Shown here in pieces: positions 21,606 to 28,377 of a DNA stretch of 34,451 nt (the stretch's first letter is position 1; the number at the start of each line of letters is the position of its first letter). The notes under the pieces are model-generated. The model was not told the DNA's origin and searched no databases. It saw only the letters and a program-made list of their open reading frames with translations. Source of the DNA: Sphingomonadales bacterium (GTDB taxonomy: Bacteria > Pseudomonadota > Alphaproteobacteria > Sphingomonadales > Sphingomonadaceae); NCBI GenBank assembly GCA_028869175.1, contig JAGWTB010000020.1:1-34451 (forward strand), read 5' to 3'. The translations under genes and the position numbers were made by a program.

Positions 21606-21627
21606 GGTTTTCTCCAGCCGAAACATG

Positions 21628-21660
21628 AAAGGGCGGGGCCGCGAGGCTCCGCCCTTTTCG
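21628..21660 (+). terminator. Rho-independent-like terminator after cytochrome c
   Basis: AAAGGGCGGGGCC-GCGA-GGCTCCGCCCTTTTCG: GC-rich stem with one G-U pair, followed by T-run. Confidence 0.85.
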
Positions 21661-21752
21661 TTTGGCCTTGGCGATGCGCCAGCCCGGCGGCTCTTCCTGC
21701 CCTGGCAAAATGCGCCGGAGCGTTCCGGGCGTGCGTTAACCCTCCCTTGCGG

Positions 21753-21832
21753 ACTCAACTAATTCGATAGAGTATAAAGCTCAGCTTCTGGCCCCTACAG
21801 AACTGCTTTGATGTCTATCGGTTCAGTTGAGT
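21753..21832 (+). promoter_or_regulatory. 80-nt imperfect dyad / candidate structured 5' leader of the sulfate operon
   Basis: Arms ACTCAACTAATTCGATAGA (21753-21771) and TCTATCGGTTCAGTTGAGT (21814-21832), inner AAAGC/GCTTT and AG/CT, terminal hairpin TTCTG-GCCCCTA-CAGAA. Confidence 0.7.
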
Positions 21833-21865
21833 TTAAGCGTCGCACACCACGAGGGAGACGACACC

Positions 21866-22906
21866 ATGACCACCGCCCACCCGAAGCGCCGCCTGTTTCT
21901 TGCCGCTGCTGCCGCCACCGCCCTGACTGCCGTGCTTGCCGGCTGCTCCGGCGGAGGCGCGAAGAACGGCAATGCCGTGCAGATCACCAACGTATCCTAC
22001 GATCCCACCCGCGAACTCTATCAGGCGATCAACCCGGCCTTCGCCGCCGCCTGGAAGGCGAAGACCGGCCAGGACGTGGCGTTCCGCATGAGCCATGGTG
22101 GTTCCGGCAAGCAGAGCCGCGCGATCATTGACGGGCTGGATGCCGATGTCGCCACGCTGGCGCTGGCCTATGACATCGACGCCATCGCATCCAAGGGCCA
22201 CTTGCTCGGCGCGGACTGGCAGAAGGCGCTGCCCGACAACAGCGCACCCTACACCTCGACCATCGTGTTCCTTGTCCGCAAGGGCAATCCCAAGGGCATC
22301 CATGACTGGGGCGATCTGGTCAAGCCGGGCGTCCAGGTCATCACCCCCAATCCCAAGACCAGCGGCGGCGCGCGGTGGAATTTCCTCGCCGCCTGGGCCT
22401 ATGGCCGCAAGGCTGGCGGCAGTGATGCGGCGGCGGAAGCCTATGTCCGCCGACTCTTTGCCCAGGTGCCGGTGCTCGACAGCGGCGCGCGCGGTTCGAC
22501 CACCACCTTCGTCGAACGCGGCATCGGTGACGTGCTGCTCGCCTGGGAGAACGAGGCGCTGCTGTCGCAGAAGAAGCTGGGCGCGGGACAGTTCGAGATC
22601 GTCAATCCCTCGCTCTCGATCCTTGCCGAACCACCGGTGGCGGTGATCGCCGAGAATGCAAAGAAACATGGCACCGAAGCGGTGGCCAAGGCCTATCTCG
22701 AATATCTCTATACTCCCGAGGCGCAGGTCGCCATCGCCCGCAACTTCTACCGCCCGCGCGACCCGCAGGTTGCCGCGCAGTTCAAGGATCAGTTCCCGGC
22801 GATCCAGTTCGTCACCATCGACAAGGATTTCGGCGGCTGGGGCGCGGCGCAGAAGACGTTCTTCGACGATGGCGGCGTGTTCGACCGCATAACCACCGCG
22901 AAGTGA
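21866..22906 (+). CDS. sulfate ABC transporter substrate-binding lipoprotein (Sbp/CysP type)
   Basis: Lipobox [71 protein letters not shown]. Confidence 0.95.
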
Positions 22907-22948: not shown

Positions 22949-23800
22949 ATGCCGACTACCACCTTCCGCAGACCTGACTGGCGCGCGCCATCGGTGCTGC
23001 CGGGCTTCGGGCTGACCTTCGGGTTCACCCTCGCCTGGCTGACCCTGATCGTGCTGATCCCGCTGGCGACGATTTTCCTGCGCTCCGCCGGCATGGGCTG
23101 GCATGAATTCGTCGCCGTGGGATTTTCACATCGCGCGCTGGCAGCCTACCGCCTGAGCTTCGGCACGGCGGCGGCGGCAGGGCTGGTCAACGCATTGTTC
23201 GGCCTGCTCGTCGCCTGGGTGCTGGTGCGCTACAGCTTTCCGGGCAAGCGGGTGGTTTCGGCGCTGGTCGACCTGCCCTTTGCCCTGCCGACGGCTGTGG
23301 CGGGCATCGCGCTCACCGCGATCTATGCGCCGACCGGCTGGATCGGACAGTACCTTGAGCCGCTGGGCATCAAGGTGGCCTTCACCCCCATCGGTATCAC
23401 CATCGCCCTGGTATTCATCGGCCTGCCCTTCGTCGTCCGCTCGGTCGAGCCGGTCCTGGCCGACCTCGGCCATGATGTCGAGGAAGCGGCGGCAACGCTG
23501 GGAGCAAACCGGGTGCAGACCTTCAGCCAGGTTATCTTCCCGGCGATAGCACCGGCGCTGGTCACCGGCTTCGCCCTCGCCTTCGCGCGCGGCGTGGGGG
23601 AATACGGTTCGGTGATCTTCATCTCGGGCAACATGCCTGGCAAGACCGAGATCGCCCCGCTGCTGATCGTCACCCAGCTGGAACAATATGCCTATGCCGG
23701 GGCCACCGCGATCGCCACGGTGATGATGCTGGTGTCCTTCGTCATCCTGTTCGGGCTCAACACCTGGCAAGCGGTGCGCCGCCGGAGGCTGGGCGCATGA
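22949..23800 (+). CDS. cysT: sulfate ABC transporter permease CysT
   Basis: [23 protein letters not shown]...[28 protein letters not shown]. Confidence 0.95.
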
Positions 23801-24636
23801 GCCGGCAACACTCCACCAGCGAGGGCCGCGCCGCGCGGCTGGGGCTGATCGCACTGGCGCTGCTGTTCCTTGGCTTCTTCCTTGTGCTGCCACTGCTCGC
23901 GGTATTCAGCGAGGCACTGAAGCAGGGGCTGGGCGCATTTATCGATGCCGTGAAGAACCCCGACGCGCTGGCGGCGATCCGGCTGACCCTGCTGATTGCC
24001 GCGATCAGCGTGCCGCTGAACATGGTGTTCGGCGTGGCGGCAAGCTGGGCGATCACCAAGTTCCGCTTCCCCGGGCGGAACCTGCTGGTCACCCTGATCG
24101 ATTTGCCGTTCTCGGTTTCGCCGGTGGTTTCCGGCCTGATCTTCGTGCTGTTGTTCGGTGCCAACGGCTATCTCGGTCCTTGGCTGGCGGCGCATGGCGT
24201 GAAGATCATCTTCGCCGTGCCTGGCATCGTGCTGGCGACCGTTTTCATCACCTTCCCCTTCGTTGCCCGCGAACTGATCCCGCTGATGATGGAACAGGGC
24301 AAGGATGATGAGGAAGCCGCGATCTCGCTCGGCGCGAACGGCTGGCAAACCTTCTGGCACGTGACCCTGCCCAATATCCGCTGGGGCCTGCTCTACGGCG
24401 TGCTGCTGTGCAACGCGCGCGCCATGGGCGAGTTCGGCGCGGTCTCGGTCGTCTCCGGGCACATCCGTGGAGAAACCAACACCATGCCGCTGCATGTCGA
24501 GATTCTCTACAACGAGTACGATTTCGTCGGCGCCTTCGCGGTCGCCTCGCTGCTGGCCGCGCTCGCCCTGGTGACACTTGTCGTCAAGAGCCTGCTCGAA
24601 TGGCGCTTCGACCTTCATTCGGGAGCAAAGCATTGA
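23797..24636 (+). CDS. cysW: sulfate ABC transporter permease CysW
   Basis: [53 protein letters not shown] overlap with cysT. Confidence 0.95.
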
Positions 24637-25610
24637 TCCGCGTCCAGAACATCACCAAGCGCTTCGGCGAGTTCCCGGCGCTCCACGGCATCGACCTTGA
24701 AGTGAAGCCGGGTGAATTCATCGCCCTGCTCGGCCCTTCGGGCTCGGGCAAGACCACCCTGCTGCGCATCATCGCCGGGCTGGAGTTCCAGGATTCGGGC
24801 GAGGTCTTTTTCCACGACGAGGACGTTTCCAGCGTCGGGGTCGGCGAACGGCAGGTGGGTTTCGTCTTCCAGCACTACGCGCTGTTCCGCCACATGACCG
24901 TGGCCGAAAACGTTGCCTTCGGCCTGACCGTGCGCAAGGCGAAGAACCGCCCGGCGAAGAGCGTGATCAAGGCGCGGGCGGAGGAATTGCTCCGACTGGT
25001 CCAGCTCGACGGGCTGGGATCGCGCTATCCGGGGCAGCTTTCCGGCGGCCAGCGCCAGCGCGTCGCGCTGGCCCGGGCGCTTGCCATCGAGCCCCGGCTG
25101 CTGCTGCTCGACGAACCGTTTGGCGCGCTCGACGCCAAGGTGCGCAAGGACCTGCGCCGCTGGCTCAAGGACCTGCACCGCCAGATGGGGCTGACCTCGA
25201 TCTTCGTGACCCACGATCAGGAAGAAGCGCTGGAACTGGCCGACCGGGTCGTCGTCATGGACCACGGCGTGATCGAACAGATCGGCACGCCGGAGCAGGT
25301 CTACATGGAACCGGCGACGCCCTTCGTCGCCCGCTTCGTGGGCGAAACCAACCAGCTTCCCGCCAGCGACGGCAAGGACATGCTGCACGTGCGCCCGCAC
25401 GATCTGGAGATCGTTGCCGCGGACGGAGACGCCGTGCTGGTCGACAACGTCTTCCGCAAGGGCGGCTGCTGGCGGGTCGAAGGCACGCTTACCGGTGGCG
25501 GCAAGGTGGTGGAGATCGACCTCGATGCCAGCCGACCTGCCCCCTCGCCGGGCGAAACCGTGTTGATCCGCCCGCGCCGTTCCAAGATCTTTGCCCAGAC
25601 CGGAGCCTGA
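24633..25610 (+). CDS. cysA: sulfate ABC transporter ATP-binding protein CysA
   Basis: TTG start overlapping the cysW stop; Walker [53 protein letters not shown]. Confidence 0.95.
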
Positions 25611-25613
25611 ACC

Positions 25614-25796
25614 ATGAATACCAGCAGTAACCAGCCCCCGCTCGATCCCGCTGCGGCCCGGCTGCTCGAAGAGAGCCTCTCCAGTGTGCGGGAGGCGCTG
25701 ACCGGCCTCAAGTACGGGGCGATCTCGCTCACCGTCCACGAAGGCCGCGTCGTCCAGATCGACGTGACGGAGAAGAAACGGCTCAAGCCGAACTGA
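25614..25796 (+). CDS. DUF2292 (YezD-like) small protein
   Basis: LLEESLSSVREALTGLKYGAISLTVHEGRVVQIDVTEKKRLK. Confidence 0.88.
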   Translation: MNTSSNQPPLDPAAARLLEESLSSVREALTGLKYGAISLTVHEGRVVQIDVTEKKRLKPN

Positions 25797-25896: not shown

Positions 25897-28377
25897 ATGA
25901 ACTCCCGTACCCTGCTTCTGGCTGGCGTGGCCTCGCTCACGCTGTTTGCCGCTCCCGCCCCAGCCCTTGCTGTCGAAACCGCTGCCGAAGCCGCAGCCGC
26001 AGCCGACACTGCCGCGCCGACTGACGATCAGCAGACCTCGGTCGGCACCGGCCAGGCCGACGCCGGCGAAGACATCGTCGTCACCGCCCGCCGCCGTCAG
26101 GAAACCTCGCAGGAAGTGCCGCTCGCCATCTCGGTGATCGGCGGCGAGCATATCGACAACACTGGCAGCTTCAACGTCGGCCGCCTGCAGCAACTGACCC
26201 CGGCGCTGCAGTTCTATACCTCCAACCCGCGCAATTCCGCCGTGAACATCCGCGGTATCGGCGTGCCCTTCGGCCTGACCAATGACGGCATCGAGCAGGG
26301 CGTCGGCATCTATGTCGACGATGTCTACTATTCGCGCGTCGCCTCGGCCACGTTCGATTTCCTCGACGTCAAGCAGATCGAGGTGCTGCGTGGGCCGCAG
26401 GGCACGCTCTATGGCAAGAACACCACGGCGGGGGCGATCAACATCACCACCCGCGCACCCACCTTCGACTTCGAGGGCCGCGCCGAGGTGACCGTGGGCA
26501 ACCTGGGCTTCAAGCAGGCCAAGGCAGCACTATCCGGGCCACTGTCTGACACCGTGGCGGCGCGCATCGCCCTGTCTTCCACCAGCCGGCGCGGAACGAT
26601 CTGGAACGTCAAGACCGGCAACTGGATCAATGAGCAGGACAACCTTGGCCTGCGCGGTCAGTTGCTGTGGCGGCCTTCCGGCAGCGTCGACGTGACGCTG
26701 GCAGGCGACTATTCGGTGCAGAACCCCGAATGCTGCGGCACCGTCTTCGTCCGTACCGATGCCACCCAGCGCGCGCTCGCCCGCCAGTACGCCGCGCTCG
26801 CCGCCGCACAGGGCTATGTCCAGCCATCGACCGATCCGTTCGCGCGGGTGACCGATCTCGACGCCGATCTCAACGCCGGCAACAAGATCGGCGGCGCATC
26901 GCTGCGGGTGAACTGGGATACCGGCGCGGGCAAGTTCACCTCGGTCACCGCCTGGCGGTTCTGGGACTGGAAGCCGGCCAACGACCGCGATTTCACTGGC
27001 CTGCCGATCACCACGGCATCGAACAATCCCTCGCAGCAGGACCAGTACACCCAGGAATTCCGCTTCTCCGGCGGGAACAGGACAATCGATTATGTGCTGG
27101 GCGCTTTCGGCTTTCACCAGAAGGTTCGCACCCAGGGCCTGCAAGTGCAGGGCACTGCGGCGAGCAAATGGCTGCTCACCGGTGCACTGGCCAACAATCC
27201 GGCGGTGCTGAACGGCCTGACTGCCAACAACGATATCCGGCTCGACAACACCAGCGTCGCGCTGTTCGGCCAGCTCAGCTGGAAGGTGACCGACCGGCTG
27301 ACCCTGCAACCCGGCCTGCGCCTGAACTATGACAAGAAGGACGGACTGTACGATTCGGTAGTAACCGGCACCGCATCGGACGGCACGCGCCAGCTCGTGC
27401 AGTTCGCCGGGGCCTATTCGACCGACCCGTGGATCGTCGCCCAACGCGGCGTGCTCGCACCGCAGCGTGTCGTCGCCAAGTACAGCGACTGGAACTTCAG
27501 CTACGATTTCAACGCCAGCTACAAGGTGGCGACGGACGTGCTGGTCTATGCCACCTATGCCCACACCTTCAAATCGGGCGGGATCAACCTCAACGGGGTT
27601 CCGGCAGACGCGGCAGGCAATCCGCTGCTGGCCGCCGCCACGGTGAAACCGGAAACGGTCAATCACTATGAAGCCGGGATCAAGAGCCAGTTCTGGGACC
27701 GCAAGGCAACGCTCAACATTGCCGCCTTCCGCACCGACATCGCCAATTACCAGGCGCTGGTGACCAACGGCCAACTCGGGGTGCTGCGCGGCTATCTGGC
27801 CAATGCCGACAAGGTCCGCACCCAGGGCTTCGAGTGGGACTTCTCGGTCCGCCCGAGCGAGCGGTTCAATGCCTATGTCAACGGCACCTGGACCGACGCG
27901 ACCTACCGCAAGTTCGTCGATGCGCCCTGCCCGCCGGAACTGTCGGGCGGCGGTACCGGCACGCCGGTCGCTGCGGCGGGCACGGTCGGCAACAGCCCGG
28001 CCAACTGCAACATTTCCGGCCAGCGCCTGCCGGGGGTTTCCAAATGGTCGCTGTCATGGGGTGCCGAGGCCAATGCGCCCGTCACCCTGCTGGGCAAGGC
28101 AGGCCAGGTCTACCTCGGCTATGACGGCAACGGGCGCACCCGCTTCTCGTCCAACCCGACGCCGTCGGCCTATACCTGGGTGGACGGCTACGCCCTCAGC
28201 AACTTCCGCGCTGGCTTCCGCACCGAGCATGGCATCGACCTGTTCGTCTGGGTGCGCAACGCCTTCGACGTCAACTATTTCGAGCAGTTGCAGGTGCCTT
28301 CAGGCAACACCGGCCTGATCGTCGGCAACCCCGGCGACCCGCGCACCTGGGGCGCGACGATCAAGGTGGAGTTCTGA
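25897..28377 (+). CDS. TonB-dependent receptor
   Basis: Signal peptide, TonB-box-like EDIVVTARRR, plug IRGIGVPFG...VLRGPQGTLYGKNTTAGAINI, C-terminal GATIKVEF. Confidence 0.96.
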   Translation: MNSRTLLLAGVASLTLFAAPAPALAVETAAEAAAAADTAAPTDDQQTSVGTGQADAGEDIVVTARRRQETSQEVPLAISVIGGEHIDNTGSFNVGRLQQLTPALQFYTSNPRNSAVNIRGIGVPFGLTNDGIEQGVGIYVDDVYYSRVASATFDFLDVKQIEVLRGPQGTLYGKNTTAGAINITTRAPTFDFEGRAEVTVGNLGFKQAKAALSGPLSDTVAARIALSSTSRRGTIWNVKTGNWINEQDNLGLRGQLLWRPSGSVDVTLAGDYSVQNPECCGTVFVRTDATQRALARQYAALAAAQGYVQPSTDPFARVTDLDADLNAGNKIGGASLRVNWDTGAGKFTSVTAWRFWDWKPANDRDFTGLPITTASNNPSQQDQYTQEFRFSGGNRTIDYVLGAFGFHQKVRTQGLQVQGTAASKWLLTGALANNPAVLNGLTANNDIRLDNTSVALFGQLSWKVTDRLTLQPGLRLNYDKKDGLYDSVVTGTASDGTRQLVQFAGAYSTDPWIVAQRGVLAPQRVVAKYSDWNFSYDFNASYKVATDVLVYATYAHTFKSGGINLNGVPADAAGNPLLAAATVKPETVNHYEAGIKSQFWDRKATLNIAAFRTDIANYQALVTNGQLGVLRGYLANADKVRTQGFEWDFSVRPSERFNAYVNGTWTDATYRKFVDAPCPPELSGGGTGTPVAAAGTVGNSPANCNISGQRLPGVSKWSLSWGAEANAPVTLLGKAGQVYLGYDGNGRTRFSSNPTPSAYTWVDGYALSNFRAGFRTEHGIDLFVWVRNAFDVNYFEQLQVPSGNTGLIVGNPGDPRTWGATIKVEF

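Follow-up and report, generated by a model that had tools for sequence, protein, structure and literature searches.

Does a long, hairpin-like dyad upstream of a sulfate uptake operon act as a structured RNA leader or as DNA? The dyad is 80 nt long and spans positions 21753-21832 of the window, by which we mean the whole 34,451-nt stretch of DNA that was analyzed. Its coordinates and sequence match those given in the initial annotation, and the architecture described there could be reproduced in full: the arms (21753-21771 and 21814-21832) pair at 17 of 19 positions if one G-U is counted, the internal loop GTAT/GATG, the AAAGC/GCTTT upper stem (21776-21780 and 21805-21809) and the terminal stem TTCTG/CAGAA are all present, and 33 nt separate the end of the dyad at 21832 from the sbp ATG at 21866. 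When folded as RNA, the dyad has a minimum free energy of -31 kcal/mol (z -5.05), and none of 200 shuffled sequences was equally stable. Pairing of this extent is far beyond chance. The genomic copy count, which had been proposed as a way to recognize a generic repeat, is one, and a generic genomic repeat was therefore ruled out. An intrinsic terminator was also ruled out, as the dyad has no T-run and none is listed there by a terminator scan.

Judged by its sequence, the cause of this pairing is the presence of two inverted copies of a DNA site, and not a selected RNA fold. Each arm is contained in a 27-bp imperfect palindrome, TAATGTCTAY-N7-RTTGAGTTTA, which is found repeatedly before the sbp genes of sphingomonads. 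Because each copy is nearly palindromic, the adjacent pair resembles a long hairpin. An operator had been offered initially as the alternative to RNA, and this suggestion is supported, since the two arms correspond to a palindromic site that is conserved and occurs at sulfur genes. The AAAGC/GCTTT upper stem is probably a coincidence in which a conserved box pairs with the -10 region. The features concerned are the following.

21750 to 21776, minus strand: O2, the upstream operator copy, a 27-bp imperfect palindrome that is inverted relative to O1 and contains the left arm
21776 to 21788, plus strand: AAAG-N5-CTTT-like box (AAAGCTCAGCTTC) in the -35 region, conserved in orthologous promoters
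21807 to 21812, plus strand: predicted -10 element (TTTGAT), which abuts and overlaps O1 and aligns with TCTAAT, TATAAT or TTTAAT in orthologues
21809 to 21835, plus strand: O1, the proximal operator copy, which contains the right arm, matches the consensus exactly and is kept before sbp orthologues

The operator matrix used to scan both strands of the window was built from 70 sites, all from relatives and none from the window's own genome. O1 is the best place in the 34 kb (29.75 bits) and O2 is the second best (19.95 bits), and the next unrelated place scores -0.8 bits. For comparison, the top scores in 20 random windows drawn from a first-order Markov model had a mean of 0.4 and a maximum of 11.6. 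The centers of O1 and O2 are 59 bp apart, and the pair flanks the core of the sbp-cysTWA promoter. At many sbp loci, one operator copy lies close to the gene, and a further two, spaced by 48 bp, are often present farther upstream. Because O2 is not kept in relatives at the spacing seen in the window, its role is uncertain. The best background matches of this AT-rich matrix cluster at about 1303-1512, where the window, GC-rich elsewhere, may be locally rich in A and T.

Comparison of orthologous promoters supplied most of the information on where transcription should begin. Of 150 genomes sampled from the genus, 48 have a match to the sbp protein, in a few cases a weak one; eighty sbp loci were retrieved, and 35 orthologous loci were scored for the arrangement of operator, box and -10 element. 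The AAAG-N5-CTTT box lies exactly 38 nt upstream of the operator core at 29 of the 35 loci, and at any other offset tested (-60 to -18) it occurs at one locus at most. A -10-like T-NN-AAT is located between box and operator at 26 loci of the same set. The orthologous upstream regions share the word TGTCTAY-N8-TTGAGTTTA, which is present in repeated copies with no common hairpin. No such box was found at the same place before hydrolase-cysK operons, and at sbp it is possibly an activator site or an unusual -35 element.

A generic sigma-70 scan lists no promoter at the dyad, so the promoter assignment is one made from conservation alone. Transcription would likely start near 21817-21820, inside the right arm, which would leave the left arm untranscribed. 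The initial annotation had placed a possible promoter across the left arm and reasoned that the dyad might then act as an operator. That consequence agrees with our results; a transcript from this promoter would presumably also begin past the left arm. Transcription that reads through from the cytochrome c gene upstream could bring the left arm into a transcript. After that gene, at 21624-21668, a GC-rich hairpin followed by TTTTCGTTT was noted by eye, is not listed by the consensus scan, and is likely a terminator between the cytochrome c gene and the dyad.

The genes downstream from the dyad are arranged as follows.

21866 to 22906, plus strand: sbp, sulfate ABC transporter substrate-binding protein (NCBIfam NF008022 and TIGR00971, above cut-off)
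22949 to 23800, plus strand: cysT, sulfate permease (TIGR02139, above cut-off)
23797 to 24636, plus strand: cysW, sulfate permease (TIGR02140, above cut-off)
24408 to 25610, plus strand: cysA-like ABC ATPase, with Walker A and ABC signature motifs recognized by eye (the listed open reading frame is longer than the gene)
25614 to 25796, plus strand: small DUF2292 protein, OscA-like (PF10055; NF033785 at 40.7 bits, below the OscA cut-off of 85)
25897 to 28377, plus strand: TonB-dependent receptor (PF00593, PF07715)

The TonB-dependent receptor is probably the last gene of the sulfate operon, and no operator match was found directly upstream of it, between 25600 and 25900. Over the compared part, it is 78% identical to the receptor of locus L186 in genome G058, which has an operator upstream. 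Close relatives of this receptor elsewhere have an operator of their own beside an Rrf2 gene, and its substrate may thus be a sulfur compound. The OscA-like DUF2292 gene sits between cysA and the receptor, and OscA is a sulfur-starvation protein.

The site also recurs before other sulfur genes. Genome scans with a sequence-only model of the operator at a threshold of E ≤ 1 returned three matches in the own genome, which are O1, O2 and a site at C116:584-609, with O2 in third place genome-wide; the single E-values are weak (0.04-0.37). The site at C116:584-609, with another copy 48 bp ahead of it, precedes an operon for a serine hydrolase (PF06821) and cysteine synthase (cysK). In eleven further genomes (twelve with the own genome), sites recur before sbp, the hydrolase gene and genes for TonB-dependent receptors, and recurrence before other sulfur genes is therefore seen both in the own genome and in relatives. 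We consider the odds slightly better than even that Sphingomonadaceae have a sulfur regulon whose cysteine-rich Rrf2 regulator falls below the curated cut-offs for both CymR and IscR, and which would control sulfate uptake, the hydrolase-cysK operon and TonB-dependent receptors, while a further factor would act through the AAAG-N5-CTTT box. In the literature searched, which included few subscription journals, we found no account of such a regulon, so that it is possibly new. For the control of sulfur genes in sphingomonads, these results supply a defined motif, a set of target genes and candidate regulators.

The site has the architecture of an Rrf2-type operator, namely a palindrome with seven base pairs between its half-sites that abuts a conserved -10 element. 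This distance fits the central 7-bp region described for hmpA1, an operator of the Rrf2 protein NsrR (PMC9338935). Linkage to an Rrf2 gene is observed as well, in relatives only. At seven loci, an Rrf2 gene is located just upstream of sbp, and the gap between the two holds a variant operator that is CCTAY-N7-RTAGG-like. Another Rrf2 protein of about 150 aa is encoded in most sampled genomes of the genus, and in four of them, including G058, an operator site lies 120-240 bp past the stop codon of its gene. In G058 and at locus L157, a TonB-dependent receptor follows the Rrf2-linked site. Several of the genes for the ~150-aa protein are preceded by a weaker site, no more than about 50 nt from the start, which suggests that they may be autoregulated.

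The linked Rrf2 proteins match the solved CymR structures 2y75 and 3t8r by sequence. They score 66.5 and 65.0 bits with the curated CymR model, which does not reach its cut-off of 195, and 73.2 and 61.3 bits with the curated IscR model, which does not reach its cut-off of 207.55. CymR is an Rrf2 protein that controls cysteine metabolism in Firmicutes (PMC2869319). As in the CymR regulon of Bacillus and Staphylococcus, an Rrf2-family dimer is implicated here and cysteine or sulfur genes are targeted; the linked Rrf2 differs in falling below the CymR cut-off, in its extra conserved cysteines and in its alphaproteobacterial host. A search for a CymR-like Rrf2 in the own genome, a 67.5%-complete draft, gave only two other Rrf2 genes. 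The neighboring lipoprotein gene (bamD-like by eye) has no match in this draft either, and given its incompleteness, the absence of the Rrf2 gene is uninformative.

We favor, with a probability of roughly three in four, the interpretation that the dyad comprises paired Rrf2-type operators that repress sbp-cysTWA when sulfur is plentiful. A regulator of the Rrf2 family, dimeric and similar to CymR in sequence, would bind the operators when sulfur or cysteine is sufficient, and operator occupancy is expected from the CymR analogy to be high under this condition. Bound at O1, which overlaps the predicted -10 element and start, it would block RNA polymerase. O2 directly precedes the -35 region and would make repression tighter, perhaps through cooperative binding. 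Under sulfur limitation the regulator would leave, and the sulfate uptake operon would be expressed. In this scheme, the sites, how they are conserved and placed, the sulfur genes that share them and the linkage to Rrf2 genes are observed, whereas we infer the identity of the binding protein, its binding, the direction of regulation and the signal to which it responds.

The most serious competitor retains the paired DNA operators and assigns them to a regulator from outside the Rrf2 family, perhaps a sulfur regulator of the LysR type, with the linkage to Rrf2 genes being incidental. The AAAG-N5-CTTT box is conserved and of another type, so another factor may act at this promoter, and the own draft lacks the linked Rrf2. 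However, an incidental linkage is opposed by the seven loci at which Rrf2 stands just before sbp and a variant operator lies between the two genes, and by the four genomes that have a site just past another Rrf2 gene, and the spacer length also fits Rrf2 operators (PMC9338935). We regard this explanation as unlikely.

Considerably less plausible is that the site serves a regulator of iron or Fe-S metabolism, of the IscR/RirA type, and not a sulfur regulator. Both IscR and RirA belong to the Rrf2 family. The candidate regulator carries conserved cysteines, as do other Rrf2 members, and it scores slightly higher with the IscR model (73 bits) than with the CymR model (66 bits). In Alphaproteobacteria, Rrf2 proteins such as IscR act at palindromic sites overlapping promoters, including the Iron-Rhodo-box (PMC4618611), and the sites described here share this arrangement. 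Yet 73 bits is far under the IscR cut-off of 207.6, and sites in the own genome are found only at genes for sulfate uptake and cysteine synthesis, not at iron or Fe-S genes. Furthermore, the SUF-linked Rrf2 locus of the own genome gave no match, and the motif is unlike the Caulobacter IscR motifs (PMC11475020).

A structured cis-regulatory RNA, such as a riboswitch or other leader in the sbp 5' UTR, is what the initial annotation had leaned toward, and the very stable fold upstream of a metabolic operon is in keeping with that idea. The proposed check for conservation and covariation upstream of orthologous operons has now been run, and its outcome speaks against the RNA version. For this purpose, 29 orthologous promoters were anchored on the operator and the box, and the base pairs of the window were compared with the same pairs after the partner had been slid by 1-3 positions. 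The pairs can form in 47.6% of cells, compared with 39-44% for slid partners, which is about the level of chance, and the mean folding z is -0.4 in these loci as opposed to -5.6 for the window by the same measure. The hairpin is thus absent from the orthologous promoters.

Rfam was also consulted: no family matches at gathering score, and none overlaps 21753-21832 in permissive mode. The sul1 RNA motif (RF03058) is associated with sulfate-transport genes in Alphaproteobacteria. In contrast, the dyad has neither a sul1 match nor a conserved RNA structure, and the sul1 model gave no match above cut-off anywhere in the own genome. With chance-level pairing in orthologues, no Rfam match, a conserved promoter that would put the start inside the right arm, and a DNA motif that fully accounts for both arms, an RNA leader is the least credible of the explanations considered and very improbable. 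The dyad is best described as a real and well-conserved, predicted DNA operator pair of a sulfur regulon, and not as a new RNA. A candidate RNA switch is thereby replaced by a testable DNA operator, in a clean case of neighboring palindromic operators that mimic a structured RNA.

The distal operator copies found in relatives show a regularity of their own. At many sbp loci (L013, L014, L015, L020, L101, L103 and L114), the two upstream copies are exactly 48 bp apart, and the first copy of this pair has the conserved spacer TCTACTCATTTCATCGACATT. The same 48-bp pair is also present before the hydrolase-cysK operon of the own genome (L121, about 540-609).
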